From Linnemannia elongata (taxonomy: Eukaryota > Mortierellomycota > Mortierellomycetes > Mortierellales > Mortierellaceae): a stretch of 64,000 bases of DNA. Shown piece by piece: positions 3,901-51,791 of this stretch. Below the pieces are notes generated by a model. It did not search any database, was not told the DNA's origin, and was given only the letters and a program-made list of their open reading frames with translations. The stretch spans positions 2,548,001 through 2,612,000 of the forward strand of contig JAXBDG010000005.1 in the NCBI GenBank assembly GCA_036320915.1. Reading direction: 5' to 3'. The position numbers were made by a program, and so were the translations under genes. Every line of letters begins with the position of its first letter. Position 1 is the first letter of the stretch.

Positions 3901-4282
3901 TAGCACCAGTACCGAAGTGACGTATGATCGGGATTGCTCGTCTTGCCGCCTCGATGTCACGGATATGGATCGAGAGCTCTGGAAGCAGGCGCGTCAGAGC
4001 GGCGAGATCAATTTGAACCCTAAGACATGGGGTCGCACCGCGATTCTTTGCTCTTCTTGCCGAACACAGTACCGTCGTCATGGTCTGCGTTGCACCCAAT
4101 GCTTCTACGTCCCTGTCTGGAACCCTGAGCCTATTACCCCTGCTCCTGCTACAGATGAGGCCTCCTCCTCTGCTCCAACCCCTGCTCGTTTGGCCTCCAC
4201 TGTCAGTAGCTTATCTGCCATGCCCAAGCCCGGTGGAACTTGCAAGCGATGCAAGGCCGGCACTTGGTTCAAGGAAGTCTGA
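935..4282 (+). CDS. Large disordered protein with C-terminal GATA-like Cys-rich zinc region
   Basis: This is a single-exon gene of 1,115 residues. Residues 1-110 are the conserved N-terminus and include a charged helical stretch, probably a coiled coil, rich in Glu, Arg and Lys (about 60-110). The middle is low-complexity Ser/Thr/Pro/Gln with several basic patches, for example around residues 700-720, typical of nuclear proteins. The C-terminus has four CxxC pairs: C1001/C1004, C1039/C1042, C1053/C1056 and C1103/C1106. Between the first two pairs the pattern ELWK followed by LCSSCRTQYRRHG echoes the GATA finger (PLWRR, LCNACGLYxKxHG). The spacing of 34 residues between the pairs is much longer than the GATA norm of 17-18. 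Role inferred: a chromatin or transcription factor. The ATG at 935 is the first in frame and sits in a good context. Confidence 0.85.
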   Translation: MASRLSKVYDINMPADRSEYSYPITNITYHLPESPHPERGEAAAQKAFQRILDSYDENERLADAFQVELDKRTQIANERKAEERRIRVERQRLAREEKRNKKLGKNHKAVTTGVSSTPTTATTTPPPGGLPATAVTSHLSVQALAQAFQPRHGRFAAAGYSLVGLERRPSIDHAIAASRSSGRSRQSSVGSLHSCSSGTNTTIATSAHEGTEPSGAPMVDSRLSFSASDHPHPPHSPPLFDVHGHHSSHSSHPPDRSLTSSPILPLTPSPRLNPSSDTAFGVVAPFPSTLAATTITSTTTVFPTSSTMTSSASGHSPSSFTSPCTNNNSNTSLPTPPPQKQQHSGSSTLPMRNKRKQAIPVHPSVIKRIPGITFRIQPDLDKHLQVEILKNIEDYQSTTTKNVPLGGGHTAFVHTSMDKQQEEDASQLQASQDLSKVRQSITSSRPGYASLCIPDDAASYDDPYLQDYRETSPQTLTLHAAPNNNNVNTTRYHPYQHHSRNGSLGSGHNVSLHTPTKLRSRSSSSANIWAPYAPSATGLAMLLSDVVAARATLPLSWDNFSTRDCQVNKVVGKNGRDFEQLEAVVQETVARHQAVAAAAQQEADEEIQEDGEAAGVAHKSDQKSLTAAAAKESSEPSGDAFRKRKTAPVTTPPPPAAAAPPSQASAQRLTGSRATRSRTTHQAEGGRPSRAGATDLVEGYDDIERILKEKRQKKREQQKRHDSQSRGVSEATTEGDYDLDVDMEHPRIKEDVDMDDRSALLRGYTESETESSNSTTPSKRGAAKPPSPPHSRQVTPAAKVDLSSSSLQHHTHLGASSSRTPPTTPTRASARNPQHTDPTQQDTGAESAVTTPVSKTRARARSFSTTIPTDANTNFFESALEMIEAKRRQSIAKKKASAVVHSATNTDSPQDHQQKQQVDEQQQQANRQLEQELANETSQKMMAPNSNIPKSSKLLPGRVLRKPRVRNYDGSDVETDHQDGGSTSASAAASTSTEVTYDRDCSSCRLDVTDMDRELWKQARQSGEINLNPKTWGRTAILCSSCRTQYRRHGLRCTQCFYVPVWNPEPITPAPATDEASSSAPTPARLASTVSSLSAMPKPGGTCKRCKAGTWFKEV

Positions 4283-18276: not shown

Positions 18277-21200
18277 CTAATACCGTATGGCTCCAAAGTC
18301 AACTGTAAATTCAGACATCAAGTCGCCCAACGGTGTAATTTCCGGCAACACCACCTTCTCCCCAATACCACCCAGTTGCAACAGATGCAAGGCCTTCTCG
18401 GTGGCGCCCATCATAATCTTGGCCATATCATCCTCTGACATCTGAGTGTCTTCGCACCGCCGCGAAACGTACGCCGGTGGTGGAGGGGGCATCATCGCCA
18501 TTGTCGACAGGTCCCCGCTCGAATACTTTTTCTCACCACTAGCGCGAGAGGGTTGCTGTGGGGATGTCATGGGGATGGAGGAGAAGGATTCTGTATCTGA
18601 GGTTGGAGACCCGACGATAGCCATGCCTGGAGTAGTCGCGGCGCGGGCAGTTGTGGGGGATCCCTTCCTGGTTTCACATGCAGACTCTGTGGATGACGAA
18701 GATACAGTCTCAGAGGACGCAATCGAGGAAGAGGATTCGCGGCGCTGGATCGAGCTTCCCCATCGACCACTGTTGCTGTTATTGTTCTTGGTATCGCTGT
18801 TGTTAACAGGGGTTCGGAAGGCACTGAACCATGAACGACGGTACTCGGGCGAGGGTGTCTGATAGTGATTACTGGCTGGTCGACTTGACGACGTAGCAGG
18901 AGGTGAAGGAGTGTTAATGTCTCCACCATAGCCCTCCGGAAACCGTGGCGGCGAACCCGTCGCGGAGAAACCTGTCACACTGCCCATTCCTGGCTGACGG
19001 TAGTACTGGTGCTGGAATTGGGACCTCAAATGACTTGGCGGCGACGAAGAAGCCGAAGTCGAAGAACTCGGCTGATGGGGTTCCAGGAACGAATCACTCG
19101 TAGTAATTGACCCAACCGAGGTATGCATCGACGACAACGAAGACCTATACGCATGCCCCTGTCCCAGCCCCACAGTAGCACCCACACCACTTCCGATGCT
19201 CACCCCTCGGAGGTGATGGTGGTTTGGCGAGAAGGCATGGAACTGTGGGCTGGAGGGTGCGGTGGCAACGGCAGATGAGGATCGCGAATGAGTTAGAGCG
19301 GCAGAGGCGGCACGCATGGAACTGAGGGCTGCGGGTGAGGGGCGACGGTCCTTGAGTTGTTGGGTGTAGTGCCGTCTGCGTCTCCATCTGTACACCTATT
19401 GTAGTCGTGGAGGTGGGAAAAGGCGGTGGGAAGCAAAGTCAGTATCTTTTGGAATAACGGGGAAAGGAAAATGAGGCGCGATTTAGGTATGTTCTTTGAG
19501 CACTCTCCCTCCCTTTCTCTCTCTCTGACTGTCTGTCGTTGCTGTTGCCATGGAATAAAGTAAAGGGGTGGTGTCCCTGGCACTCCCGCGCTATCTCAAG
19601 GCACTCTTTCTTTTTTTCGCTCCCTTATGTTCTTTGCCAGCATCATTAAGAATGCGAACCGAGCACATATTCCCTTCCCACCTCATTACTCAAAAACGTG
19701 GCAAAAGAGCTGATAAAATATAGTGACCATGACAAAGAGAGTACACACAAGATGAGGGAAAAAAAGAAAGGAATGGAGAGAATGCAAACAATCCCACAAA
19801 AAAACACGCACAGAGCAAGGGGAAGGGGCAGTCGCACCATAACAAACCAAAACAAATCAAAAGAAAAGAAAACAAAGAAAACAAAAGAAACTAATAACAT
19901 ACAGAGTATTGGACTCCCAAGAGCAAGACAACAGCCCCTGGCAGAATAGGAACAAACACCATCAAGGCAGGCAGCATCAGCACCCATGCAATTGACGCAA
20001 CTGCAGCCAGTCCGATCGTGTATACCGTCCAATGCATATTGTGCTGCTTGGCATCCTCCCAGAACCCTGGGAACTCGGTCCTCTCAAGAGGACCCAAGCC
20101 TCCACCGATGCGACTGGTGCTTAGGATCAGGTTCCGCTCGGCAGCTGATGCTGCTGCGGTAGCTCGCTGCAAACTTGCGATCCGGAGCAAGCCTTGCATC
20201 CGGGGCGGGGATGACAACGTGGATGATGTGCTGCTGTGGTTGTTGTTGTGAGCGGTGATGTTGGTGTGTGAGAGGGACATGAGGGTGTCTTTGTGGTCGT
20301 GTTCAGGACCGATAAGAGCCGATAGATCCTTTTCGGTATCGGAACCAGTCCTTTCCATCAGGCGCGTCGCGGGCGACGGCGAGGACGACAAGGACGACCG
20401 GGGGTTAAATGCCGTAGGAGGAGTCTTCATCATCATGTCTGCAGCAGAGCCCGTCGACCCAAAGATGGGGATCGCCTGTGGAGGCATGTTGGAGATACCC
20501 CTGTGGCCAAGGCCAAGGCCAGTAGCTGTCTTGGTGCTGGGTCGTGGCAGCGGCATGTTGTTGTTAGAAGGCGAGGTAGACGACGACATGGAAGAGGGGA
20601 TGACTGCAACGGAGTGTCGCTTCACGTCTCGAGACACCTTTGGAGAGAACACTCTAGGTGTAATAGTTGTGGACACCATGTCAGACATCATAACTCCACT
20701 GCCCGCAACAATAATCGCAGGGGAGGACAAAGTAGTCGCAGAAGAGGAGGATGCCGAGCGCGCCAGGGCCACGGGTAAGGAGTAACGCTTGGTCTTTGCG
20801 GTGTGAGAAGCGACGATAGATGCTGTGGTGGTGGTAATAGTAGGATCATGGGCTAGATGTTGCTGCTGTTGGTCAGGGACCTGCTGGAGGGGAGGGGAAA
20901 TAGCAATGACTGCTGAAGTTGCCGAAAGTGTTGATATTGTTGATGTTGTTGCTGTTGTTGGTCCTGTTCCTACACCTGCTCCGTGATCCGAAGACGATGG
21001 TGGAGAAGAAGAGATGTAAGGGGGTGGTGGAGGCGACACCATGCTGACCCTATGAGTCGGGTACTGGTACGCCATCTTCTCTTTCTCAATCATCGAGAGT
21101 GCCATGGTTGTCGAGGGCTTGCGCGAGTTGTGATTGTCTTTGTTGGATTGGATTGGGCGAGGGCTGACACGGACCACTGTCTGAGGGGTAGTAGTAGAAG

Positions 21201-21768
21201 TGGTTATCGTAGTACTGCTGTTGGTGAAATTGGCGTACTTTGCAGAATACGACAACACAGGAGTCGCCTTGGCTGTAGGTGGGGTAGGCAATTGCTGCTG
21301 CTGTGGTTGTGGTTGTTGTTTCTGCTGCCTCAACTGCGCAAAAGGATGGCTCTGATAAGCTTGATATGCCGGCGCTTCAACCTTAATAGCAACACCAGCA
21401 GCAGCAGGCGAAGGGAACTCGTATTCCCTCAACTTCTTCCTATCATCCTTCTCCGCAACAACAGTAGGTGTAACCGGTGTCAACAAGTGCAGATTAGGCT
21501 GTTGAGGCATCGGCATCATCATTTTGAAGGGGAGAGGGGTCATCATAGGGGACGAGATGTCGGACGAAGGTGAGTCTGGGTACTGATATCCGTTCCTGGT
21601 GAGCGAAAAGAAACTAGCCTCTTCTGCTCCTTCCTTTGAGGTATTGGTGGTGTTGGTGGTGTTGAACATTCCTGAGGGCGAGAGCGGTTCACTTCTGGAA
21701 GCCTTCTTCATGTGGAGGTAGGAAGGCGTGGAGGGGATATCGATATGGAGAGGGTTCATTCGAGCCAT
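18277..21768 (-). CDS. 994-aa disordered protein with a central hydrophobic hairpin
   Basis: Two exons (21768-19903 and 19395-18277) join in phase 0 through a 507-base GT-AG intron. Residues 1-570 are Ser/Thr/Pro/Gln-rich and probably disordered. Residues 578-620 form a long hydrophobic stretch with a Pro in the middle (FVPILPGAVV), best read as a two-helix membrane hairpin. The intron falls right after it (QYS|VYRWRRRRHY), followed by a strongly basic patch that would keep the flanks in the cytosol. The C-terminal half is again low-complexity and ends in a better ordered segment of about 60 residues (EDDMAKIMMGATEKALHLL). I do not recognise the family. A hairpin protein of the ER, lipid droplet or plasma membrane is a guess. 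The ATG at 21768 is chosen for its context. Confidence 0.75.
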
Positions 21769-23119
21769 GATGGTGACGGTGGTCCTCTCGGGAAAGGGTA
21801 GAGGGTACGTGTGTGTTGGGTTGGTTTGATTTGAGAAGGGGATGAGGAGTGGTTTGAAAAGGTAAAGAGGGTAAAGTATGTGTGAATGGGGTATGGAATG
21901 CAAAATGAGGCAAGCAAGAAATTGGAATATGTGGCAAGAGAGGAGGCACAGAGGGCTGCAGGGACGAAACGGCCCACGCGTCGATGTGTGGACGAGAGGG
22001 GATCAATAGGGCTAAAGGGTAGGACAGCTAGAGGGCTACTTCGTCTTCTTCTTGGTTAGAAGGGATAATGAAAAGGGAGGGAAAGGGAAAGGATGGAAGA
22101 AGAGAGAGAGAACAGAAAAAGAACGAGAATTGGAGGGTCTAGAGACAAAGAAGTGAAAAGGAATTAAAGTGAGCCAAGATGGAAGTACGATTCTCGCGCT
22201 CTTAGTTCTTTGCTTCTACTGGGAGCCCAAAGAGAACGAGCGAGAGATAAGAGGGAAAGAAAGAGGGAAAGTGAGAGAAAGGGAGTGAGAGAATAAAGTA
22301 CCCAAATGGATTCGGTTCGGAGAAAAGGAATGCATGCACCATGTCGAAAGAAAGACACACTTGGGACAAGGTGCGTAAAAGTGACTGGGTCTAATTGATT
22401 GAAGAAGGAAAGGGACAAAGGGTCAAAGGGAAATGGCATGCGACCCAGTCGGTGATTGGGTTGTTCTTATCGCGTACTTGCATGCGAATAGCACTGGCAG
22501 GAAAAGGATGTGCCCTTTGCGAATAGTTACAATAAGCATTCAATACCATGGACACTACCACTTTCATCCGATTGCCCCACCCCCTCGCATATTCCATACG
22601 ACATAATAACCCTTTTGTTTTTGCCTCCTTCCATGGTGCCTTCCTTTCTTCCTTCCTTCCATCCCTCATCTCCCTTTCTCAATGGGTGTACTGGTATAAC
22701 ATCTGAATAGGTCCTGCCTGGCTGTCCCTTATGCTTCTTCTTTTTGCATCGACCCCTTCTTTCTTTCTTTTCTTGTCTTGTTCACCTCTGCCCCTTCTCC
22801 TGGACATTCACGTTGTTATTGTTATGGTTGTTGATTAGCATCTCATCCCATTCCATCACACACCTCCCTCCCTCTTTCCTTCCCCCTTTCTATTCGCCTG
22901 CCTCTTCCTTTTCCTCTCTCTCCCACTTCTTCTCGTTCTCTTATACCACTTGCCCTCAAATCCCAATTAAATCAGCACTGGCTTTTTTGTGTCTGCATGC
23001 ACTAATAAAACTACCGGGCGCGAGGTCGGCTTGCAAGGGTCGCAGGTGTTGTTGTCCCTTAGCTACCCAGTTGTACCCATTCGCACGCCATTTGGTGTAG
23101 CCATTGATGCATCTGTCAT

Positions 23120-32817: not shown

Positions 32818-34403
32818 ATGGGTTGCTGCCTTAGCGCAGAAGAACGGGAAGCCCACCAGGCTCACGAGAGCATCGAGACCCAACTCAAACGCGACCGTGC
32901 CATATTGCGTAACGAAGTCAAGATGCTCTTGCTCGGTAAGAAATCAAATCTCATCCTTCTACACTTTCGCATCATACAGGGTTGAAGTCGTAACCTCCCT
33001 AACTCTTCTTTGCTCCTTTTCAATACGCAATGTAGGCGCTGGAGAGTCTGGAAAGTCGACCATCTTGAAGCAAATGAAGCTGATCCATGAGGGAAGTTAC
33101 TCCAAGGAAGAGCGTGAGGCATTCAAGGAGATCATCTTTTCCAACACTGTTCAAAGGTAAAGGAGATATCCTAATTGCTCAAACACAATTGAAACGCAAA
33201 GATTGAGTCGAGCCTACTGTCGCAATGAAAACAAGATTGCTAGCGCAAAAACACAAAGCACGCGTTGTACATCTTTCATCCCAACCTAATACTGACACCC
33301 TGGCTCATCTTACCTCTATATCCCTACAAATAGTATGCGTGTGATCCTGGAAGCGATGGATAACATGGAGCTGCCACTGTACCATAACACCAACCGCAAC
33401 TACGCAATTGTGGTTAGGAGCCTACCCCCACAGATCGAGGGCGATTTCATGCCACACGAAGTTGCTGTTGCCATTCAAAACCTCTGGCTCGACCCTAACG
33501 TACAAAAAGCCTTTTCTCGCAGTCGCGAATACCAGCTTAACGACTCTGCCAAATAGTAAGTGTGCTTGAGATACTCCTTGAAATGCCAGGGTTTGATCAC
33601 TGAATCTGTTGACTAAAAAGCGATAGTAACTTCCTCTAACACTGATATGACCTTTCTTATCTCCAATTAGTTACTTTGATTCGATTGACAGGATTGCAAA
33701 GCCAACATACTCTCCGACAGATCAGGACGTGCTCCGATCTCGAGTCAAGACGACGGGTATCACCGAAACAACATTCAACATTGGAGAGCTTACCTACCGG
33801 ATGTTTGACGTGGGTGGTCAAAGGTCTGAGCGTCGCAAGTGGATCAACTGTTTCGAGAACGTGACAGCAGTAGTGTTCTTGGTGGCGATTTCTGAATACG
33901 ACCAATTGTTGCTCGAGGACGAGACGGTGAACCGAATGCACGAGGCTCTGACGCTGTTTGACTCGATCTGTAACTCACGCTGGTTCGTCAAGACGTCGAT
34001 TATCTTGTTCTTGAACAAGATTGATCGCTTCAAGGAGAAGTTGCCCTTTTCGCCGTTGAACAAGTACTTCCCGGATTTCGATGGTAAGCTATGATTGGCT
34101 AGTGATAGTTCGATTTTTTTTGGCGCGAAAAAAATCTCGCGTTGGTGGCGTTCTCCCTCCCTTACTAATCCTTTCAAACATACGTGTTTTTGGAATGTTT
34201 TTTTTTCCTTAATAGGTGGCGACGATTACGAGGAGGCATCACAGTACATTCTTGACCGGTTCGTGAATCTCAGTCTGTCAGAGACGAAACAGATCTATGC
34301 CCACTTCACATGTGCAACAGACACGAGTCAAATCAAGTTTGTCATGACAGCTGTCAGCGACATTATCATCCAAACCAATCTTCGCGACTGCGGCCTTCTG
34401 TAA
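32818..34403 (+). CDS. Heterotrimeric G protein alpha subunit (group I, Gi-like)
   Basis: This is the membrane-bound GTPase that couples seven-helix receptors to cAMP or MAP-kinase signalling. Five exons, 32818-32935, 33036-33156, 33334-33555, 33671-34083 and 34216-34403, give 353 residues, the standard length. The N-terminal MGCCLS supports myristoylation at Gly2 and palmitoylation at Cys3/Cys4. The P-loop is GAGESGKS (40-47). Switch I is RVKTTGIT (R178, T181), switch II is DVGGQR (G203, Q204), and NKID (269-272) and TCAT near the end bind guanine. The C-terminus CGLL with Cys350 at position -4 matches Gi-like and fungal group I subunits and gives a potential pertussis-toxin site. All catalytic residues are intact. 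A 7TM receptor-like gene lies about 11.5 kb downstream on the opposite strand. Confidence 0.97.
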
Positions 34404-35406: not shown

Positions 35407-37586
35407 CTACATGATTGTACACATACGCCCTCCTTTGGCGCCACCGCCACGCTTAATAGCCTCATCCACTTGCACCTTCAACCTCTGACCCTCCGCACCC
35501 AACTGACCCGGACGCCGACTCGCCAGCGTAAACCATTTCTGAGCCTGCATCAGATCCTTCTTTGAGGGGTCCCATACATGCTTCACCGCTTTTGACGACG
35601 ACGACAGCTCCTCTGCCTCAGAAGCCGTCTCTTCGGTCGAAGAAGGAGCCTGAGGAGTTTCGTCTTGGAAATAATACGCACCCAGACTCAATTGCGCCAG
35701 CCCAAACCCCTGCTGCCCCGACATCTTCCAGTACTCGACCGCCAGCGCATCATTCTTGGGGACTCCCAAACCAGTGAAATACGCTTGACCAACATTATAC
35801 TGCGCCTCAGCCAAACCCTTGGACGCCGCCTTTTGGTAATGCTGAAACGCGGCCTTGGTATTCGGCGTTCTCTTCTTGCCCTCGGGTGTAAACTGGTTCA
35901 TTTCCAGCGCACCCAACAAGAAGTGCGCCTCAGCACAGTCATCCGATTGTTGGATCGCAGATTGGAAGTACTTTTTCGCCATCCCCAGATCCTGCGGCAA
36001 CTCGCCGTTGAGATACATCCTGCCCAACGCAACCCGCGCCTCGAGGATCCCGGCCTGTGCAGCCTTAAGGTATAGATCCCGTGCCGCTTCATAGTTTTTG
36101 TCCTCGCGCGCATAAATACTGGCAAGGGTCGACATTGCCCAGGGGAGGCCTTTGAAGCGGGGTCCGCCTGCTGGTTGGGCAAGCGCCTGGATGATGGCGC
36201 GTCCTTTTGCGGGGTCGGCGGGGACTCCGCGGGCTCCGCGGTAAAGAAGGACGCCGTAGCTGTATTTGGAGGAGATATCGCCCTGTTCGAGTGCAATCTT
36301 GAACAACGCCAATGCCAAGGGTGCGCCATCTAATGTCAATCCAGCACAAAAATAGTCCCTGTAAGTACTCAAGAACTCGATCGTTCAGAAGACAACGACG
36401 ACAGATTGCAGTTCTGGCCATACCTCGAGTGTATTGCAATGACCATGATGCTAGTTCGTGAACAGCCAGACCCTTCTTCTTGCATGCTACCGATAAATGA
36501 CCCATAAAGAAAGAGATGTTAGGCCTTGACCTTTGAGGTCCTAACTCATTTTCGTCCATACTCCCTGAATAACATTATTTGCATGGGTATTTTACCAGCA
36601 GCAAAGGCCTTCTCGGTTAGAACGCGCCTAGGATCGTCCTCCTTTAGGGGCAAGACGTCTACCATGGTCTGGATCAGATCTTTGGTCTCGTCCAGCGTGA
36701 CGCTCAGTTTCTTTTGCTGGATCAACTGTGTAATAAAATTGTCTGGTGGAAACACATCTACATTGCGAGAGAGAGGAAAAGATGATTAGTAGGGTGATGC
36801 AAATAGTTTCATCCGCACTTTTGCATTCGTGCCAGTAATGAACACACCAAGAGCACATTATAGAAGGAGCGAAGACACATACCTGCCACGGTAAGTGTGC
36901 TGAGATCGACTTCCTGGCTGTTTGTCGATCTTGGAGCCAATGTCCTGTTGTAGCAGTATGAACGTACTCATTCGCGTTAGTTGCTCTCCTTTAGTCCACC
37001 TACTTTCCCATGGTCATTAAAAAATCCAGGCAACAAACAGAGAAAAGAAGACTTACTCGGATGCAGATGATGGCTTGTTGAAATCCTCAAACTGTGAAAA
37101 TAATCCGCTCACAGGCGCCTCGACCTGATCCGTCACATCCTTGGCAACAGGGACAATCTTGCCGCCCTCCTTGCGGTAGATTACATCCCCTTCTATGGCC
37201 GCAGATCCAGCTTTGATGATGGTGGCCTTTTCTGCATGCTTTGCGGTATGTTTCTTGGCTAGGTGTGAGGAGGGTGTTGTTGAGAAGCGTGCGGTAGGGC
37301 CAGCGGTAGCAGATCGGATAGGAGGTGCCACTGCACGAGAGGAAGACGAAAGGGAGAGTGACGTTCCTGCTGCTGCTGAGGGACTGACGCGGGTTACCGA
37401 GGTTGTGGGTTGAGTGATATATTCGCGCACTGTGATTGTAGTAGGATTAGAGAAGACGGCGTGAGTTCCGGCGCGGCGGCGTCTGGCCCTGAAGAGGACT
37501 TGTCCAGGCCGTGTCTGTTGTTGTGAGACTGAATGAGCAGAGTGCGAGGCCATGACCTGCCTTGCTGCTGTTGTGTTCCGAATCAT
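35407..37586 (-). CDS. Sel1-repeat protein with mitochondrial-type N-terminus and C-terminal CaaX
   Basis: Five exons are read: 37586-37057, 36944-36883, 36757-36596, 36486-36424 and 36329-35407, giving 579 residues with the frame kept at each GT-AG junction. Residues 1-60 are rich in Arg, Ser and Thr with almost no acidic residues (MIRNTTAARQVMASHS, then RARRRRAG), as in mitochondrial presequences. From about residue 270 there are at least five Sel1-type repeats, for example AEAQYNVGQAYFTGLGVPKN and ARVALGRMYLNGELPQD. The protein ends CTIM, a good farnesylation CaaX box after a Gly/Lys/Arg-rich linker. Sel1 repeats plus a CaaX box occur in the chitin synthase activator Skt5/Chs4, but the N-terminus does not look like Skt5. 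Sel1 repeats act as protein-protein scaffolds. The true location is unclear. It shares a 276-base divergent promoter with the next gene. Confidence 0.85.
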
Positions 37587-37862
37587 GTTGTGGAGAGAAC
37601 TAGAAAAGGAATGAGCGTTGTGAGGAATGAAGTAAAGAAAGGGAAAGAAAGAGAAGGAGAACAAGAAGGCCTTGGCGGTTTTCCAAGTGGAGCGCGCCGG
37701 GGGTCCATCGCCAGAAGTGGGAATAAGTGACTGGCTTTCGGTGGCACTCTTGGACAAACAACACCAACGGCGTATATTGCAAGAAGACATCTCTCGCCCT
37801 TTACTCCGAACGACCTACATCAGCTTGCAAGGGACTACCAGGGAACCACAGGAACAACGCAG
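37587..37862. promoter_or_regulatory. Divergent promoter between the Sel1 gene and the zinc-finger gene
   Basis: Only 276 bases separate the two start codons, so the two genes probably share regulatory sites. No known motif is evident. An A/G-rich block (37600-37680) is the pyrimidine-rich leader of the minus-strand Sel1 gene. Confidence 0.55.
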
Positions 37863-39005
37863 ATGGCAGCAAGGACAGCAACTACCACAAAGGTGCTGGA
37901 ATGGACACGGAGGCGCATCACTCAATCAGCATCCAAACACAGAACAGTCGCTGATCAGTTCAGTCTTCACACCTCCAACCTGGACAGGGCCAGGCTATCA
38001 ACTTACACAGCACCTCGTCAGGCACAGAAACATATCATTCCAGGATCTATACCCAAACAACAACAACAATCACCATCCACCGCAGACCCAACAACCCCAA
38101 TCGCTCAACCCCTCGAGCAAACACTCGATCGCCGGCTACGCTTCCTTTCCAAAACCCGATCCACCTCCGCCAAGAATCGTACCCCAACAGCCCCAACCTC
38201 CACTGCTGCCGGTAACACTGCATTTTTCGACCACAGCAATCAACCATCCTCCAACAATACCAATGAACAACGGCATCAACAGCGGCATCGGAAATCGAAA
38301 CGATCTCTATTGAAATCCTACAGGCCAGGCTTTCAACCAGGAGATTTCATCTGCCCGCAATGTGGGACACACAACTTCCGTTCTCCCGAACATGCACAAG
38401 TGGTTCTCCACCAGTCGACTGTCGTCCGCCTTTCCAAGAAACATGATCATCTCTCATTCGCGGGTCAACACGGTGCAGGAGGTGATACAGCAGCGACAGG
38501 AGCAGTAGGTGCAGGATCGCAGACACAACAACAGCATCAGCAGCCATTGACGCGATTCCAGAGAGAGATCATACCTCCACAACGCAAATACCCCCAAGGC
38601 GCTGCAGGACACTGTTTCGAATGCGGCTTCCAAACCTCCTTCACTCCCCCTTCTTCATCCTCAGCAACATCTCAATCAAGCTCAATCTCGACAGACCCGC
38701 TCAAGGACCAGGACTACAACCCCCGAAATTCACCAAGCACTGCTTCCACTACCCAAGCCGGAGAAACACACGAACAACACGCAGGAATTCCATCATCATC
38801 ATCATTATTATCAGCACAGTACAGGAACGACATCCGCCTAACAAACCCACGGGACTATGTCTGCCCACACTGTCAAACAGTCAATTATAGCAATCGCCTG
38901 CACTGTGTCGGATGTGGTACACTCGCACCCTGGATCCAGACCCGCATCGTCGAACAAACGCGACACTCGCCGTCGCATAGACGCTCAACAAGACGTGTCA
39001 AATAA
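37863..39005 (+). CDS. RanBP2-type zinc-finger protein, 380 aa
   Basis: This is a single exon. The N-terminus (1-30) is basic and might be a mitochondrial or nuclear signal. Residues 60-145 are Gln/Ser/Thr-rich. The C-terminus holds a clean RanBP2-type finger, DYVCPHCQTVNYSNRLHCVGCG (C334, C337, C348, C351; CxxC-x10-CxxC with the family Asn). A second copy begins GDFICPQCGTHNF (C164, C167), but its closing pair GHCFECGF (C251, C254) comes 83 residues later, as if the finger had been opened by a low-complexity insertion. RanBP2 fingers bind single-stranded RNA or ubiquitin. The arrangement suggests an RNA-binding protein, possibly organellar given the divergent mitochondrial-type neighbour. 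No orthologue is recognised. Confidence 0.82.
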   Translation: MAARTATTTKVLEWTRRRITQSASKHRTVADQFSLHTSNLDRARLSTYTAPRQAQKHIIPGSIPKQQQQSPSTADPTTPIAQPLEQTLDRRLRFLSKTRSTSAKNRTPTAPTSTAAGNTAFFDHSNQPSSNNTNEQRHQQRHRKSKRSLLKSYRPGFQPGDFICPQCGTHNFRSPEHAQVVLHQSTVVRLSKKHDHLSFAGQHGAGGDTAATGAVGAGSQTQQQHQQPLTRFQREIIPPQRKYPQGAAGHCFECGFQTSFTPPSSSSATSQSSSISTDPLKDQDYNPRNSPSTASTTQAGETHEQHAGIPSSSSLLSAQYRNDIRLTNPRDYVCPHCQTVNYSNRLHCVGCGTLAPWIQTRIVEQTRHSPSHRRSTRRVK

Positions 39006-39293: not shown

Positions 39294-41273
39294 TTAAGAG
39301 GAGGGTGAGAGGGAGATTTGACTGACAGAGGGTTTGGTCGACAAGGGCAATGGGGGTGGAGAAGTTGGAGATGTTGCCTTGGGGACGACGGGGGATAACG
39401 TCGCCAGGTCTGTAGGTTCGGTAGTATCCTGAACATTAGCTACCTCAACAGAGGCAGCAGGGGCGTCAAAGTTCGCAGGGGCATCAGAGTTCACAGGGGT
39501 ATCAGAGTTCGCAGGGGCGTCAGAGTTCGCAGGAACGTCGGAGTTCGCAGAGGCGGCGATGGACGCATCATGGGCAGGCTTATCGGCCGCCAGGACCTGG
39601 GGAGCGCCAGCGTTAATATGACCCGACGTCAACGTGGCCTCTTGGGGTTGAACATAGATCTCCTCGTAAACGTGGTGTGTCTCAAACGCACCACCTTCAT
39701 CGCCCACATACTTTTGCGGAGGGTGGACGACTCCGTTCTCGTCGGTGTCGTATGCGGTCATGCTAGAGCTCGTCATGGGCGACATGGGGCCCGAATACAT
39801 CTGATGGTGGGGGTGTTGCAAGTACCGTTGTTGCTGCTGTTGTTGTTGCTGGTAAGGGTGAGGTGATGGTGGGAAATTGGGTCCTCCACCACCGTTATGA
39901 TAATTATACTGGGGTCCCATGCGAGGCGAGTAATAGTTGCCGGGTGGTGGTCCTCCCATATGCTGAAGTGGTGGAGAACGTGGCGAAGACGGGTAATACT
40001 GCTGTTGTTGCTGTCCAGGGTAAGGCTGGTACTGTGAGACAGGTCGAGGCGGGAACAAGGGGTGTCCATCGGGTGCATAGGGGATGGAAGCACTCACGCG
40101 GGACGAAGACCGGTTCACAAAGTTGCCATTGGGTGACATGGGAGGCGCGCTTATGTTTGTCCTGGAAGGGGATCGAAGAGGGACATGGTTGTAGTTTTCG
40201 TAGAACCCACTCGCCCTGGGGTTGGGACCGACGACGGCAATCAGTGGAGGCGAGGACTGACCAGGGACGTCGTGAAGTCTTGCAGCGCTGCTGCTAGTGC
40301 TCTCGGTGGGCGAGATACCCTCGGGAGCGTAGGCGCCATCGGGGGACGAAGGAGGGGACGGCAAGAACGCGGCCGAGGAGGACGACATCTCCTTGTTGTG
40401 AAGACGGGCGTCGTAATTTTGAGCATCATAGGGATAGTTATCACCATCACCCGGGGCACCATTGTAACCACCAGGGCTACCATCGCCACGACGGCCATTG
40501 GCGACAAACCGACCGTCATGCAACTGCGTGAATGATTCGCCGCTAATGTTGTTGCTATAACCTCCTCCTCCCATGACACTCATCCGTGCACCTCCCAGAC
40601 CCGCAGCCTCAGCGTGATACCCCTTCTCGTCAAAGACATCGCTATGATTGCCCATATAGGGTCTCCGACCCACAGACGAATGCGGCCCACTGCCACCACT
40701 GTATCCGCTCCTCGCACTCCAAGTACCACTCCCCGGACGGTCCTCTCTCGCAAACCCAGCCCGTGGCGGCCGTGGCAGATCAGGCGGGTCCGGGTACCCA
40801 TCTACTCCATATCTCGAAGAAGATCCTGCAGCAGAAGCACCAAGTCCAACAAACATCATCCGCTTGCGCCGCTGCTTCAGTAACAAGAATCCTCCGACCA
40901 CTGAGCCGACAAGAACAATCGCCAATCCGGCCACCAATCCACCGATCGCAGCCGCGCTCATCCCCTCCCCATCGCCACCTGAAGTACTGGTTCCTTGTCC
41001 ACGACTATTAATATTATTACCACCAGTTCCACCTCCTCCCCTAATGGTAGAAGATGTCGTGGTGATAGGTCCGACTGTGATAACAGAGCCGGTGCCAAAA
41101 GTGGTTGTTTTTACAGTTTGGATGGTAGTCGTAACGGTGATGATGGGTGGTGTAGTTATGGGGGTTACTGGCGCTGTAGTTATGGGTGGTACGGGCGGCC
41201 TGGTGGTGACAACGGGTGGTCTTGTTGTTATGGGCGCCTTGGTGGTTGTTGGTTTTATGGGAATCGTTGCCAT
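39294..41273 (-). CDS. Single-pass membrane protein with mucin-like N-terminus, 659 aa
   Basis: This is a single exon starting at ATG 41273. Residues 1-75 are almost all Thr, Pro, Ile and Val, like an O-mannosylated stalk. Residues 76-104 are Gly/Ser-rich. Residues 107-132 form one transmembrane helix (AAIGGLVAGLAIVLVGSVVG) followed by KQRRKR, a stop-transfer signal. The remaining 525 residues are disordered, Pro/Ser/Gln/Tyr-rich, and cytosolic by the positive-inside rule. There is no signal peptide, so the helix itself must insert with the N-terminus outside, or a 5' exon was missed. The layout resembles fungal wall-sensor-like proteins (Mid2/Wsc style and Skg6/Axl2-type helices), though no cysteine-rich WSC domain is present. 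The C-terminus has a hexapeptide repeat. Confidence 0.82.
   Translation of the reverse strand: MATIPIKPTTTKAPITTRPPVVTTRPPVPPITTAPVTPITTPPIITVTTTIQTVKTTTFGTGSVITVGPITTTSSTIRGGGGTGGNNINSRGQGTSTSGGDGEGMSAAAIGGLVAGLAIVLVGSVVGGFLLLKQRRKRMMFVGLGASAAGSSSRYGVDGYPDPPDLPRPPRAGFAREDRPGSGTWSARSGYSGGSGPHSSVGRRPYMGNHSDVFDEKGYHAEAAGLGGARMSVMGGGGYSNNISGESFTQLHDGRFVANGRRGDGSPGGYNGAPGDGDNYPYDAQNYDARLHNKEMSSSSAAFLPSPPSSPDGAYAPEGISPTESTSSSAARLHDVPGQSSPPLIAVVGPNPRASGFYENYNHVPLRSPSRTNISAPPMSPNGNFVNRSSSRVSASIPYAPDGHPLFPPRPVSQYQPYPGQQQQQYYPSSPRSPPLQHMGGPPPGNYYSPRMGPQYNYHNGGGGPNFPPSPHPYQQQQQQQQRYLQHPHHQMYSGPMSPMTSSSMTAYDTDENGVVHPPQKYVGDEGGAFETHHVYEEIYVQPQEATLTSGHINAGAPQVLAADKPAHDASIAASANSDVPANSDAPANSDTPVNSDAPANFDAPAASVEVANVQDTTEPTDLATLSPVVPKATSPTSPPPLPLSTKPSVSQISLSPSS
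39457..39546 (-). repeat. Five 18-bp tandem repeats coding for NSDAPA
   Basis: Five copies of an 18-base unit encode successive hexapeptides of type NSDAPA/NSDTPV in the tail of the single-pass protein. The frame is preserved. Point differences between copies make this an older expansion. Confidence 0.85.
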
Positions 41274-44200
41274 TTTGTAAGAGAATGCCAGATATGATGA
41301 ATTAAGTTAGGTAGGTAGAGGATAGGGGCTATGTCGTAGAGAAAAATAAGAAAGAATGCAAGAGAAATGGATAGTAATAAAAGAATGAAAAGAGAAAGAG
41401 AAGAGAAGAGAAGAAGGGTCGTTACGGGAAAAAAGGGGGGGGGGAGATGTATTGTGGATGGAAGGGGGTGTCTCGTTAAAGTATCCTTGCTGTTCTTCCT
41501 CGAATCGACGGCTGTTTGTTCTTCGCCTTTTTTTTCTTGTGAACGCGTTGTAAATTCGTTCCTCTGGGAAAGGGAGAGAGTGGAGTGTGTAAAGAAGGGG
41601 TGAAGGACAACACAACAGCCCACTTGACACAAAGAAAAAGAAAAATAGAAGGAATGAGAGTCGGAATGAGAAGAAAGTGGTGGATGGAGGCACAAGAAAA
41701 AAAAACCAGAAAACAAAAGAGAAAAGAGAAGAAAAGAGGAGAAGAAGAAGAAGAGGCAAGAGTCGACAACGACGAAAGACAGAGGGCAATAAGACAAAAA
41801 TGAAGATGTAGCAGTGGCCACATAAATTTGCTTTACGCCCTCAGTTTCTTCATCCGCCGTTATGTCCAGTGGCAAATACCCCTCTCCCTCCGAAAAGTGC
41901 TCAGCACCACCACTACCTCCTCCTCCACCAACACAGAAGCAGGTGGGCATGGCCCAAATAAACAAATAACAAAAAACGAGAGCACCATCTCACCTGCCAT
42001 TTTCAACTCTACCACTACCAGAAACGACTGGACAGGAAACAAGCCAGGGCTGACGAGGAACAAGGAAAAAAGTAAGTTGGGATGAGAGCATTAACAACAA
42101 CATCTGGTTATGAGCATCGACAGTCAAACATAAAAACAACTTTGAATGAATGAATGAATGCAGACAACGGAAAGGACGAACTAGCCTACCCCTACCCTCC
42201 TTCAAGCCTTATTTTTTGCTTTGCTTTTTTTTTTTCGGCTCTCTGCTTTTCTCGTCTCTTCGCGAGTTTCTTCGCGAGTTTCCATGGAAACAACACAATT
42301 CGCTGCACACTTTCACACACACAAAGGCGCGGGCACAGGCACGCTAGCACGCACGAGGCATTGGGGACGGGATCGAAGGGGCAGGTTTACCGACGATTCG
42401 ACTAACTTTTTAGCACTCCTTGGCACACGCTCGAAATACACATGAAGGGTCACTTCAGGTACCTCAATGTTTCTTGTTGTTTCTTTACAGTGAGTGCGAG
42501 AATAAGGTGAAGGTGTTACTGTGATCTGTAAATCATCATTAATGACCGCACTCCTATCTAAGATGGTCGATCGAACTAAGAACAATTGACTACAGCCTTC
42601 TTTTACACATACCCCCCATGTATCTGTCTCTGTCCACCCCCCCTCGATTCCTCGTCAGTCCTCTTTCGATCGAACACACTTCAGAATAAAGAAATAACCC
42701 GTCCAATGGACTCAGTCGTCCTTCCGCATGCGTACAGCCATCATCGTCAGCAGCGCGGAGAAAGAGAGAAAGAAAAACTCTTGGTTTGCATAAAAGGGCG
42801 GAAGGAGAGGCTGGTAGAATCACTTGGCACCTGCTTGACAACATTCTTCCACTTCGCCAGAGTCGATGATGTGTTCTCCTTTATTGTTGTGAATTATAAA
42901 CAAAAGCCCACGAGTCTATCTTCTGTGTCTTTCGGGCTGTTATTATTGTTGTAGTTCGGACAAAAGGGAGATGCGCGGACCCTTGTTTTTTTCTTTTTTA
43001 TGTCATGTACATGTATGTCCTCAATTGATTGACCGACATTTGCTTTGGTCATGTCGTTAGTCTTGTTTCTCCGTGCGTGGCATTTCAACCTCCCCTGAAG
43101 TAAGACAGACAGACAGGGGCCATGCATCAATTGTTTTTATTTACAAAACCCTTTTCTACATCCAAAATCGCATCGATTGGAAGACGAGATCGGCTTAGAT
43201 GCTCTTTTGATATTAAGACAACGTCGCTTCAAGGGACAGTAGTAATCCAGGATCAGGAATAGGAGCAAGTACAAAAAGAGGAGCAGAAACAGGAGTAGGA
43301 GCAGGAATGGGAACAGGGGTGCGAATTAACAACAGGAACGGGAGAAACGGCCACGGGATGAAAAAGAGGGGGAACAAACAACCCAAGACAGAGATGAGAA
43401 GGGTGAGTGTCTTGGCATGAACCCTACTTCTTTCGCTCTCACAATAAAATTAGTTTAAAAAAAACGAAGGCTGCCACAGAAGCAGCGTGAACCTTCCCCG
43501 AAGGATGGGATGGGAGAAGGCGACATGGGCTGTAGCGAAACCTCATCTCCAGCCTTGTCCAGCTAAGCTTTTTTTTTTTTTCCGATCTCGTTCTCGCTTG
43601 TGTCTCTCATCTCACTCTCATTCCCGTATTTTGATCGCCGCCGCATCATTTTTTTAGTCTCGTTTTTGTTGTTCGTCTATTCCGAAAGTCGAAAAATTGA
43701 CCGAAGGAAAGGATAGGGGTAAGGAGAATTGCAATCGAGGAACCTGAGAAGACAAGAAAGTGAGGGGACACTGGGCAGGGGCACAGGGAATAGGGGTCAA
43801 TGGAATGGGTGCATTGAGAATTTAAGTCTGAGCCGCAGTCTCTTCAAAAAGGAGATGGAATGACTGTTGTTAATATATTCTGAATAAGGTACGCAATTAG
43901 CAGAGGGCGATACTTGTATTACTACTGTTACGTGAAGTTTTTTGCCACCACCATAGACGTCAGCGCCTTGGGACTATTGGAAAGACGGGACAAGGGACAG
44001 GGACAGGGGTAGTGGGAGTGAAATTGCATTACTCATCAATTTCATCTATTCCCACACGCGTACATTGTTTTGTTGTTTGTTGCTGTCATGGTTGATGTCT
44101 TTTAATGATCTCCTCATGCATCCCAGTCTTCACTCCATGGTTTTTTTTGCAGCCTTTTTGGCTTGCTTGTGTGTGTCTCAAAGTCGGAGACAGAAAAGTA

Positions 44201-45939: not shown

Positions 45940-48900
45940 TCAAAACTGCTGCCGCTTCTCAGTCATCGTCGCACCTGCGGCCATACCGCTCGCTCCAGGA
46001 CCACCAAGCGCACTAGTACCAGACAGCTGTCCAACAGACGACAACGAAGCACTCACAACCACAGGCCCAGATCCAAAGGCCTCCGATAACGGACCCGACA
46101 CCGTCGGCCCCACAGAGCCCGAAGAATGAATTGAGTAATTCGAATACGCGCCTGCACTCGCCCGGGACCCAAACGATCCTAACGAATACTGGCTTTTCCT
46201 CATCTCATCCCCTCCACTTACATTCCCACTACCTCCTGTGCCGCTTCCACTACCGGTACCAGTGCCGCTGCCGCTGCCGTGGAGGGCCTGGTGGATGGTT
46301 CCAACACTCGACGTCGACAGATGAGACCCTGGTCCGGTGAGCTTCTCACCAGACTTGCGACGGTTATACTGCATAGTCGAAGCTTGTTTCCGGTCCAGGA
46401 AGGCCCCCACAGAGACTTCGCCCGAGGTGTTGGTCACGTCGGAAAGGTCCCCTGTCCAAGTGCTGTACATCGAGATGGACTCTGAAGGCATGATAAAAGA
46501 ATGCCTGTCTAACTGCAATTGACCCTGTTGTTGTGAAGGGATCGGATAGAGGTTCGGATTTCCTAGGCGATGGAGTTGGTTGGCGGATGCGATAGGTAGG
46601 TCGAGTTCATCCTTTGACCGACGATAGTACTGCTGTTGGTTATGCTGTTGTTGATGGTGGTGGGCCGATGAGGAGCGTCGACGGAAGACTCCAAAACTAT
46701 CGGTTGATCCTTGACGGGGTTCCAGGGAAGGCGTCCGCGGCTGTTGATGCCGTCCTGCTGGAGAGGACGAAGCTGGACGGAGATCTGCATCTGAGGGCTT
46801 GCTTTGGGGACGGGAGGGAGTGGCGCCTGTAGGTGAAGACTCGGGATAGAACATACCCAGTTGCTGCTGCTGCTTTTGTACTGGCGACTGCTGCTGCTGC
46901 TGTTGCTGCGGGTAATACGCTTGGTGGTGTGATGGCAGGGGAACTTCATCCAATGGTCCCACAGAAGGCTGCAAATAATACGGCTGTTGCTGTTGCAGGG
47001 GAGCAACTTGGAAAGGACTCTGTTGCTGTTGCTGCTGTTGCTGCTGTTGCTGCGGCTGCAACCTTTGCCTCTCCTCCGCAACCATCAACTGCTGCTGTTG
47101 TTGCTGTTGCTTCTGATGATAACTTCCACCCCTCGTGACAGCGTTATAATGATTCAAGACATCATTCGTCGACGCAAAACTCGTCTTGGTCTCGTACCAC
47201 GCTGGTGTCAACGGTCTCGGCAATGTCGTCGCTGACAGGATCGTCGGTGATGTGGTCGATGCGATAGAAGGTGCGGATGCCGGGGATGAGGGGGCTGAAG
47301 GACCTTGGATCCCTCCTCCTCCTTCTCTTCCTGTACCTTCTCGTCCTCCGCCACCATTACCGTCGCGTCCGGTGACTGAGGATGTTGCTGTGCTGTTTGC
47401 GGTTGCAGTTGTAGAAGGGGTAGGATTGGGGGGATTGTTGTAGGTCTGAGGGTTGGTGGAATTGGACTGGGCGGCCATCCGTGTCTCAAAGGATTCCCGA
47501 ACACGGTAGGGGGATTTCGCTGGTGGAGTCATAGTTATTACACGTCCCTGCTGCTGCGGTTGCTGTTGTTGGACGGAGGGGGACGGCGTGACGGGTATCC
47601 GTTGCGGGAGTTCTGGGAGGTACATGGGTTGAGGCTCATGCCGAGCTGGAACAGGAGTAGTACCTGAAAAGGCGACCTGAGACAACGATGGTGTGGTAGT
47701 TGTCGTCGGTTGCTGTTGTTGTTGCTGTTGCTGCTGTGGAGGGGGTGGTGGTGGTGGAGAAAAGAGTGGTGTGGGCTGATCTTCGTGACGGGGTCGTGGT
47801 GGAGGAGGAGTGTTTGGTGGTGGAGGTGTCCTGCTTGAGCTCATCGAAAATGGGCTGAATATGGTGGGTGAAGACACCGAGGAGTGAAGTGGGGGCGGTG
47901 ATGAAGGCGGTGGCGACATAGCTGTTACTATTGCTGATGGCGCTGTAGCGGGTGCAGCGGTCGCCTTATTGGTGGCAGTACTGCTACCGCCAGCAACAGA
48001 GACGGGAGAAGCAGGCGAGGAGACCGAGCTGTTGCTGATAGCGCTCTTTAAGATATGATCCGGCACCACATGGTCCTCATACATCAACTTGGCCATCTCC
48101 AAGAACTGTCTATCCACCACATTGTCGACCGATCGCCTTGGCCGCACTCCCGGAGGTGTCGCAGGTGTTGTTGGTGTCACTGGCACCTGAGGCGCATCAG
48201 CATATCCTGCACTACCAACATCAGTCCTGCGAAATGCGTTGGCAATATCTGTAGGAATAGGTGGTGGTGGCGCCCTGTACCGTTTAGAACTGGGCGTACT
48301 GCTGCCGCTGCTAGCGTTGGATCCTGATGACCGCCGCCCTTGTTGTTGTAACGATTCTTCGATGTTGGCGTTGGCGTCTTCGTGAGAATCCGACAGTGAG
48401 ATCTCCTGTTCCTCACCGTCGAGGTACCGGGTCCCTGCTGAGGGGTACGGGTCAGCCATCAAGAACCCTGTCATCGTCGGTGACATGATCATATCCAGCG
48501 GCGGCACATTCTGACCCTGAGGCTCGTACGGTAACGGCGGTGGTGAAGTCGCAGTCGAATGAACGTCAAAGGACGTCTTTCTCAGTCCGAAATAATCCAT
48601 ATCCAACCCATCTCTCGAACTCCGACCCTTTTGTTGTTGCTGCTGCTGTTGATGTTGGTGGGCAGCAATGGCAAGGGCTCCAGCATCCATACGCGTCGTG
48701 ACGTTGGACCTTCGCTGCTGAGAAGTTGATGGCGAAGGAGAGGGCGTCGACGATTCGGACATCATGGTTGGGGAGGGTCCTGTCACTGCCGTGTTAGACT
48801 TTGAGGCGCCAGGGTTGGAGTTCCGCCGCTTGACTGGGAGGTTCTCGGAACTCTTCCTCGATCCTGCTCCGGTTTGGTTTTGTGGTTGGACAGAGCTGGT

Positions 48901-49475
48901 ACGGGCTCCGTAGACGGGTGTTATTCCCATGCCTGCATTGGCTGCTCCTGCTGCCACATGTTGTTGTTCCAACGGGTTCTGCCCAAAGCTGGATCGGGCG
49001 CTACTGGTGCTGTTCCGGGTCTTGAGAATGCCCGTCAGGGGTGCAGCCGCGGGTTTGCCAGAAGGTCCTGCAGTCGTTGCTGTCTTTGTTGCTGATGTTG
49101 CATTGTTGTTATTTGAGGTAGATATCGAGGCCATGGCATAGTGTTCCCCACTGGGTCGACGAGGGCTGGCCGAGGCAATCTCGGGAGACGCGGCGGTGGT
49201 GGTGACCTTGGGTGTTGCTGTTGCTGTAGGGGTGGCAGCATTGTTCCAGGCCCGATGTTGGTCTGAATGAATGGTCTGTTCGAGTCCCGCAATAACACTG
49301 TCCCGATCCAAGTCTCCATTCTGAGCAAGCCACTTCTTCATTGTCTCGACGTCCTTGCTGTCCTCATAGAAGTTGCTAGGACTGCCAGAATCCCGCCTCG
49401 ACAGACCGACCGTCAAGTTGTTATTGTTGTTGTCAGTCCTTGTCTTGTACGCGGTGCCTCTCTCGATATTTTGGT

Positions 49476-49515
<40 letters not shown>

Positions 49516-51791
49516 GTGAGCACCACCATTCCACGATGCTTGGTTGGAACCATCTGCACTGGGTTCCTGAGACCTAGAAGGTGTGGATGGATTCCTGTCC
49601 TTGCTGCCAGTAGGCGAATGCCCGTTGTTGATCTGCTCAATCATGTGCATCTCACTCGCAACTGCTGTCAAAGAACCCATCCGATCTCTCCGCTTGGGCT
49701 CAATATAACTATATCGTTGTTGGACTTGCTGATATTGTTGCTGCGTCGGATCGCTCTGTCCTTGTCCATTGTCAGCAATAGGTCGCAGGGCAAGTCCAGA
49801 ATGAGTAGTCAAGCCATGAAGACTCGAATGTGGCGAGATGCCATTGATCCCACTCCCACTACCCGAATCGCCCCCACCATCAATATAAAGACTCTCCCGG
49901 AACCGCTTAGCGTCTTTGACAACCCTCCGGACACGTTTTTGGAAATGTGGCGCGGGGTCATTGGCAGGCTTGGTCAGGACATCAACAGAAGGGTATAACA
50001 GGAACATGGCGGCTGGGTAGACCATGACGAGGACCGTGTTCCAGGTCGCGCCTTCGAGGTCGCTGATGATTTGGGCCTTGACGGGGTTGCACTGGGGCTT
50101 GAGGATGTCCTCGTCGAAGCGGTACAACACCCCGATGGTAAAGATGAAGACCATACTGCCAATCAGCCAATAGATGCAGTAGATGTAGTAACTGAGTTGG
50201 AGTGTCACCGATGTATCTTCACCGGCAACATTTCTTGAATCGCGTTCCAGGGCTCGGAGTCGACGGCACGTAATGACATAGCAGATCAAGACGGCTGTCC
50301 CTCCGATGAGAAGAAGCAAATCCGAGATATTACCCCCCCTCGTCCTGTCATCAAACCCCAGAGCCAGGACAGACATCGTCGTGACAGGGGCGACCAAGGC
50401 AAAGGCAGCAAGGATCCAGTAGAAGTACTTCTCCGCATTCGACATAAAGTTGCCCTCATCCACCAGGGCCTCGACATGTTTACACCAATAAGTGTTCAAC
50501 AACAACAAACTTGACAACAGCCCCCCCTGCGCCGCCTTGAGCATGATCCTCAAACACACCTGGTAGTACAGATTCTCGTCGCTGTAGAGGGTACTGGGCT
50601 TCATGGCCAGGATATGATAGAACTGCTCACCATCTGGAACAACTTTGGTGTCGACACTCCACGTCGAGTTAACAGACAAATCAGTAAAGGTAAAGTTTCG
50701 TGGGAAGGTGAGTGGATTTGATTTCCGATCGGCCATGGTGGGTCCGGTGTAGTAGGCCGCCATGGACTCGGTGTAGAGTGTTCGGGCTAGGATGGCGTTG
50801 TAGAGGACCAGAAGTGCGAGGGAGGAACAGGACAGCCAGGTGACAATTGCCCTCGTGTTGAATCCAGGCTTCAACGCTGCAAAACCCCTTGTCGTTGTCA
50901 CTCGCAGCAATATGAAGATCTAGAAGCCGTGTTTTCGAACCAAATGTTGCCGCGGGGAAAGAAAAAAAAATAAAGGGGAGGGAATTTGCCATGCGACCGA
51001 GACCATGGAAGACCAGGCAAAGCAAAAAAAACATGCATAATAAAGATGGAAGGGGGTTGGAGGGAGGCCCGATTGGCCAATCAGTTATGCAAAAAGTAGT
51101 AGACAAACACCACGAGGTGTGAAATAAGGAAATAGGCGAAAGACAAAGTTCATGATAGCGATAAGAAAATTGACAAGGGTGAATGAAAGTGAAGATGGAG
51201 TAGAAACGAAAGAAGGATAGAAACGGGTAATGGTTAGTCTTCTGCTGCTTCCGAATTTCACGGGGAAGTGAAGGTGAAGGGGAGTGTGCATTTGATGTAC
51301 TTTTGGGCTGTATCATATTGTGCAACGGAAGTGAAGGAAAGGGAAGGGTGGGGAATGAAAGTCGATGTAGTCGACTCTATTTGTGCAGTACTGCGGACTA
51401 TAGTCCGGCGAAGACCCATGAACAACAATGAAAGGAGTCGAAGGGTTGTCCTCAATGAAGAGTATACAAAGGAACCGGGCGACCATGATGGCGTCAAATG
51501 TGAACGTCCACGGTAAGTGTTCACTAAGAAAAGGAACAAAAGAAGGAAGGTGCACTTACCAGCATGACCAAACCGACAACACCTGCATGTATAGACTGCG
51601 AAGGAGGATCCTGCTCCAAAACTATAATTGACGTACAAGGAAAAAATAACGAGTTGGCGAAAGTTCACAAACAGCTGTTAGCTTTTCTTCCATGTGCCTT
51701 GTGGATCGTGGTGTTGAAGATAGAAACAATAATCGTCCGGCTGGCTTGGATGCTCTTCTTGGTTGAAGAAACACGTACTTAATCGAGCCAT
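45940..51791 (-). CDS. Seven-transmembrane protein with giant polyglutamine-rich cytosolic tail
   Basis: Three exons are inferred: 51791-51779 (13 bases, MARL plus one base), 51621-51560, and 50919-45940, giving about 1,684 residues. The joins keep the frame and assemble a first helix (about residues 16-32, HAGVVGLVML joined to IFILLRV). Helices 2-7 lie near 49-70, 147-170, 190-213, 225-244, 269-291 and 318-335. The loop between helices 2 and 3 carries two N-glycosylation sequons (NFT at about 100, NST at about 109), which fits an N-outside, C-inside receptor topology. After a basic segment (KRVRRVVKDAKRFRE) come about 1,300 residues of Ser/Pro/Gln-rich sequence with long Gln runs (up to 11). 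I cannot assign it to a known GPCR class. Exon 1 is the least certain part. The frame of the main exon is otherwise uninterrupted for 1,659 codons. Confidence 0.8.

Follow-up and report, generated by a model that had tools for sequence, protein, structure and literature searches.

Fungal G-protein-coupled receptors (GPCRs) are tabulated in 17 classes with their Pfam families in one published source (PMC13308352), and a recent survey gives 17 classes and places the 14 fungal classes mainly in Ascomycota and Basidiomycota (PMC12842992). That survey also counts 141,666 seven-helix proteins without a class; of 1,969 clusters, the ten largest were scanned with Pfam. Its main text does not name Mortierella. 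Here we describe a gene in a window of 64,000 nucleotides from Linnemannia elongata (the whole stretch of DNA analysed; assembly GCA_036320915.1, contig JAXBDG010000005.1, positions 2,548,001 to 2,612,000, forward strand). It lies at window positions 45940-51791 on the minus strand and resembles members of the published classes in that it encodes a fungal seven-transmembrane protein, for which an N-out, C-in topology may be predicted, but the class-defining Pfam families do not match it. We propose that the product of this single-copy gene is an orphan receptor that has a GPCR fold and a tail acting as a docking strip, and that its family occurs, as far as seen, in Mortierellomycetes alone; we assign this reading a probability of roughly 0.62. 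No description of a receptor of this kind in Mortierella was found among the open-licence papers listed by the literature searches.

Reading-frame and splice-site analysis yields three exons (Table 1) separated by introns of 157 and 640 bases, both with GT...AG ends, and a predicted protein of 1,684 amino acids that starts with MARLILEQDPPSQSIHAGVVGLVML followed by IFILLRV. Exon 3 is a single uninterrupted open frame of 1,659 residues. The predicted protein and P0002, a GenBank prediction from L. elongata, are identical over residues 1-375, and exon 2 matches protein P0026 of Actinomortierella wolfii (70% identity, E 0.0098; genome C28:2599554-2599622, window 51554-51622), whose N-terminus is itself a gene prediction. 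A total of 34 proteins share the core with the window protein (300-785 bits), and the [DN]PP[ST] motif of the exon 2 N-terminus is present in the predicted N-termini of 17 of them; the remaining 17 have later starts because they are either partial sequences or predictions that begin at an internal start. P0019 and P0037, two of the relatives, start precisely at the exon 3 boundary (IFIVARV), which suggests that the intron position is shared with the window gene. The splice sites, the 17 N-termini and the P0026 match support the joining of the 5' exons to exon 3. An earlier note on this DNA had counted seven helices once these exons are added, a count that depends on exon 2 because the first half of helix 1 is encoded there; both the hydropathy of the predicted protein and the helices in models of two relatives agree with it. 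The genome (51.1 Mb, 32 contigs) holds one copy of the gene at the sensitivity used, and no paralogs were found in searches that included E<=10.

The seven hydrophobic segments (Table 1) are preceded by approximately 15 residues, and a large outside domain is absent. Outside loop 1 spans 72 residues and outside loop 2 only about 8. As the earlier note had claimed, glycosylation sequons reside in the first of these loops (NFT at 100, NST at 109; a further one, NIS at 222, is located at the start of helix 5), and a basic juxtamembrane segment, QKRVRRVVKDAKRFR, directly follows helix 7. The fold was predicted with AlphaFold2 for two relatives, P0006 and P0036, through which the window protein is represented. 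Both models contain seven long helices in a GPCR bundle arrangement, and in the better model the mean predicted local distance difference test score (pLDDT) of ten-residue blocks in helices is approximately 60-92. When the better model was compared by Foldseek, GPCRs made up 50 of 50 rows among the matches listed. A search of the viral structure library yielded 304 matches, all at E of 0.001 or above, and viral GPCRs featured in its top rows. Neither Ste2, Ste3 nor other fungal GPCR structures were among the best 50 rows per structure search, which excludes nothing, and a PDB sequence search returned 0 chains at E<=10. GPCR structures in the structure-match rows, such as P2Y14, CB1, a class T receptor and Smoothened, have 6-10% identity to the family. 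These findings support a GPCR-like predicted fold with seven helices; the check proposed in the earlier note, when run on these relatives, revealed no non-GPCR fold, and neither of the two outcomes which that note had named as refuting was encountered.

Although the fold is already known, the family appears by Pfam to fit none of the 17 fungal classes. The class families compared were PF02116, PF02076, PF11710, PF04193, PF05462, PF00615, PF00002, PF03006, PF01036, PF06814, PF12430, PF11309, PF03619, PF05730/PF20684, PF00001, PF00003 and PF01534/PF01392. Exon 3 matched 0 Pfam families at E<=1, and ten core members scanned at E<=10 matched 11 scattered families, none class-defining (best INSIG, 0.024), in line with the earlier statement that no known fungal GPCR class is recognisable. 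Such scans reach moderately distant relatives only, and HMMER filters discard most matches above E ~0.1. Positive controls from the same genome were recognised by Pfam, unlike this family: a class C frame (PF00003, E 4.4e-34) and a Frizzled-like frame (PF01534, E 1.2e-14). Profile-profile comparison of the family with these two frames gave no similarity (E 0.55 for class C, E 0.72 for Frizzled-like). Searches with Git3 and Dicty_CAR found no match in this genome, and the control genomes were likewise silent, so that this result is no evidence of absence. Class A receptors carry the hallmarks DRY, CWxP, NPxxY and a disulfide between helix 3 and outside loop 2. Here the conserved columns read NTYWCxHVE, CxYWL and YPAxxF instead, Cys147 is conserved in 0.04 of 24 outgroup rows, and the long loop is outside loop 1, which together set the family apart from the structures of the GPCR superfamily. 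Microbial rhodopsins (class IX) bind retinal through a lysine in helix 7; no lysine is present in helix 7 of the window protein or of the ten core members.

The Frizzled-like control (L017, 1177-2526, minus strand) and the class C control (L018, 733-2160, plus strand) are receptors in their own right. The class C receptors combine 7tm_3 with a weak ANF_receptor match, and five 7tm_3 loci were counted by grouping. The frame that follows the receptor frame of L018 looks low-complexity by eye.

A core-profile search added two further proteins to the family, giving 36 in total, and a full-length profile added none. All but P0003, P0005 and P0020 (33 of 36) bear Mortierellomycete genus names. Membership was checked in taxonomy for three genera, and we take the remaining genus names to be Mortierellomycete as well. 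No relative outside Mortierellomycetes was found by the sequence, core-profile or full-length-profile searches, of which the latter two restricted scoring to the candidates with the most shared words (7,996 and 7,992); very distant relatives could be missed because the method needs shared 5-residue words. Within this reach, the family appears confined to Mortierellomycetes, consistent with the lineage-specific receptor that the earlier note had suspected.

Conservation was measured as identity to P0002 over 24 non-Linnemannia rows, with gaps scored as mismatches, which lowers the values at the N-terminus. Identity is 0.79 in inside loop 2, 0.74 in inside loop 3, 0.73 in helix 7 and 0.71 in the juxtamembrane segment, against 0.33, 0.10 and 0.34 in outside loops 1, 2 and 3. 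Such a pattern would be expected of a receptor whose inner partner is fixed and whose outer surface diverges. Outside loop 1 carries 60 sequons, spread over 32 of the 34 members, where shuffling within the loop gives 22.7 +/- 4.2 (none of 500 shuffles reaches 60; the rows are related and thus non-independent). Elsewhere, sequons number none in inside loops 1 and 2, five in inside loop 3, one in the juxtamembrane segment and one each in outside loops 2 and 3. The loop 1 sequons and the basic character of inside loop 1 and the juxtamembrane segment agree with an N-out, C-in topology, but the net acidic charge of inside loops 2 and 3 does not.

The tail runs from residue 337 to the end; its 1,348 residues make it four times as long as the membrane part, much as the earlier note had put it. 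The first model, which stops at residue 1024, gives most of the tail it covers a pLDDT under 45. The tail is rich in Ser, Pro and Gln, and the Gln runs emphasised in that note do exist (7, 9, 7, 11 and 7 residues). Across the 34 tails, the longest run ranges from 4 to 11 and the Gln content from 4.7 to 10.9%. The nine other frames of the window that were examined include one with a Gln run of 8 and three with runs of 4. One study reports that a high glutamine content of low-complexity regions is general in Mucoromycotina and Mortierellomycotina (PMC11878562). A condensate-forming poly-Gln tail as the main idea is not supported, given the variable run length and this general trait. Conserved short motifs arranged in a chain describe the tail better than Gln runs do.

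Beyond residue 430, 13 islands of at least seven residues are conserved between genera, three of them at 0.76-0.80 mean identity, exceeding every helix. Fifteen-residue tail windows above 0.55 identity number 280, whereas 1,000 column shuffles gave 9.5 on average and at most 48. Simple sequence patterns were used for SH3, kinase, 14-3-3, calcineurin, WW, PDZ and RVxF sites. The GILK motif is present in all 34 proteins and a [RKY]xxPxxP polyproline in all 32 covering rows. [ST]P sites occupy 11 columns in at least 22 of 34 rows, the six best columns reaching 30-33 rows; basic-directed Ser/Thr sites occupy three columns (23-28 rows each). No site for 14-3-3, calcineurin, WW, PDZ or SH3 class II was aligned in at least 22 of 34 rows. 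In other genera the tail extends further, ending in a module of the form QEWxxRRxAVKK ... SEYQWESAExxxHxWEM (for example in P0018 and P0026). Its WESAE motif lies near the C-terminus in 19 of 24 non-Linnemannia proteins and in 0 of 10 Linnemannia-like rows, four of which are short or marked partial. The best match to the module is unconvincing in the window (E 0.23; absent after window 45940) and probably low complexity in the genome (E 0.016, 18.5 bits). Loss of this module in Linnemannia is therefore likely.

Table 1. Features of the receptor gene and its predicted protein (window coordinates; helix limits are approximate).
Feature	Residues	Window position	Strand	Basis
Exon 1: ATG, MARL + 1 base		51779..51791	-	ATG and GT donor; N-terminus same as GenBank prediction P0002
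Exon 2: N-terminus and first half of helix 1		51560..51621	-	splice sites; Actinomortierella wolfii match
Exon 3: remainder of helix 1, helices 2-7, entire tail, stop codon		45940..50919	-	open frame, 1,659 aa
Helix 1, split by 640-base intron	16-32	50899..51589	-	hydropathy; model helices in relatives
Helix 2	47-70	50785..50856	-	hydropathy; model helices in relatives
Outside loop 1 (ECL1), long, two N-glycosylation sequons; short strands in relatives' models	73-144	50563..50778	-	
Helix 3, NTYW invariant at inner end	145-170	50485..50562	-	alignment, model
Inside loop 2, loop with highest conservation (0.79)	171-188	50431..50484	-	
Helix 4	189-214	50353..50430	-	hydropathy, model
Helix 5	223-246	50257..50328	-	hydropathy, model
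Helix 6, YYIYCxYWL conserved	264-291	50122..50205	-	alignment, model
Helix 7, YPAxxFLLYP conserved	315-336	49987..50052	-	alignment, model
Tail island EPKRRDRMGSLTAVA	432-446	49657..49701	-	conservation
Tail island PLTGILKTRNS, [GS]IL[KR] in 34/34	650-669	48988..49047	-	conservation, motif scan
Tail island QQRRSNVTTRMDAGALAIAA	756-778	48661..48729	-	conservation
Tail island PTMTGFLMADPYPSAGTRY	839-857	48424..48480	-	conservation
Tail island KRYRAPPPPIPTD, SH3-type polyproline in 32/32 covering rows	904-916	48247..48285	-	conservation, motif scan
Tail island TTPATPPGVRPRRSVDNVVDRQFLEMA, TP sites constant	941-975	48070..48174	-	conservation, motif scan
Tail island TLPRPLTPAWYETKTSFASTNDVLNHYNAV	1245-1290	47125..47262	-	conservation; second genome match absent at E<=1
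Tail island SMYSTWTGDLSDVTNTSGEVSVGAF	1497-1536	46387..46506	-	conservation; second genome match absent at E<=1
Tail island WTGDLSDVTNTSGE				

We envisage that the N-terminus and the long first loop face the outside or a lumen and would sense a ligand, and that the conserved inside loops and the juxtamembrane segment may couple to one of eight G-alpha subunits (eight loci in the genome, by grouping of matches). The tail would then serve as a phosphorylation-controlled docking strip, in which the constant polyproline would be a binding site for an SH3 protein and the invariant GILK perhaps one for protein phosphatase 1 (PP1). Kinases would target the [ST]P and basic-directed serine sites, and the Gln runs would act as spacers. 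GILK fits the S/GILK secondary docking motif of PP1 (PMC5874294). No RVxF-type site aligned in at least 22 of 34 rows was found (aligned sites only); PP1 binding is put forward as a hypothesis because GILK occurs without a conserved RVxF. A bolder version, which we regard as possible but doubtful, is that the family forms an eighteenth fungal GPCR class confined to Mortierellomycota, with a receptor that bears its own scaffold tail of 1,200-1,600 residues (shortened in Linnemannia), recruits an SH3 protein and PP1, and is switched by kinases. If so, receptor, phosphatase and polarity machinery would form one signalling hub on a single polypeptide. In a group of common soil fungi, a gene that is conserved, single-copy, receptor-like and outside every class presents a concrete orphan, and the tail motifs offer defined handles for seeking its partners.

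The GPCR fold could also be used without G-protein signalling, as in a trafficking protein, a channel-like protein or a polarity anchor (compare TMEM87A), with the helices holding the tail scaffold at the membrane. We consider this rather unlikely, since every row among the listed Foldseek matches of the better model is a GPCR and conservation in the bundle peaks at the inner face, the side on which G proteins would bind. TMEM87A belongs to the GOST family; the proteins described here differ from it in their short stretch before helix 1, with no large outside N-terminal domain, and in their long tail. Descent from a known fungal class, such as class III (Git3) or class V (cAMP-receptor-like), with divergence beyond recognition by sequence, would account for the shared general fold and would be compatible with the limited reach of Pfam scans. 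However, no class family was matched by ten core members even at E up to 10, within the HMMER filtering noted above, and the profiles resemble neither the Frizzled-like nor the class C frames, and we hold such an origin to be improbable. The biased composition of the tail might further suggest a gene-prediction artefact in which a membrane protein and a low-complexity frame were fused by chance. This is already contradicted, and has next to no likelihood, because exon 3 is uninterrupted, core and tail islands co-occur in one order in long relatives of about ten genera, and the two tail islands searched, which are among the strongest, lack a second genome match.

Elsewhere in the window, three long Ser-/Pro-rich frames (866-4279, plus strand; 19894-22002 and 39297-41306, minus strand) have no Pfam match at E<=0.001. 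A heterotrimeric G-alpha gene with several exons, one of the eight G-alpha loci counted in the genome, resides at approximately 32818-34403 on the plus strand, 11.5 kb from the receptor gene, and its protein ends in NLRDCGLL, which we take to be a Gi-like C-terminal end. Between the two genes are a Sel1-repeat protein (35410-36384, minus strand) and a frame that contains a zinc finger of the RanBP type (37731-39002, plus strand).

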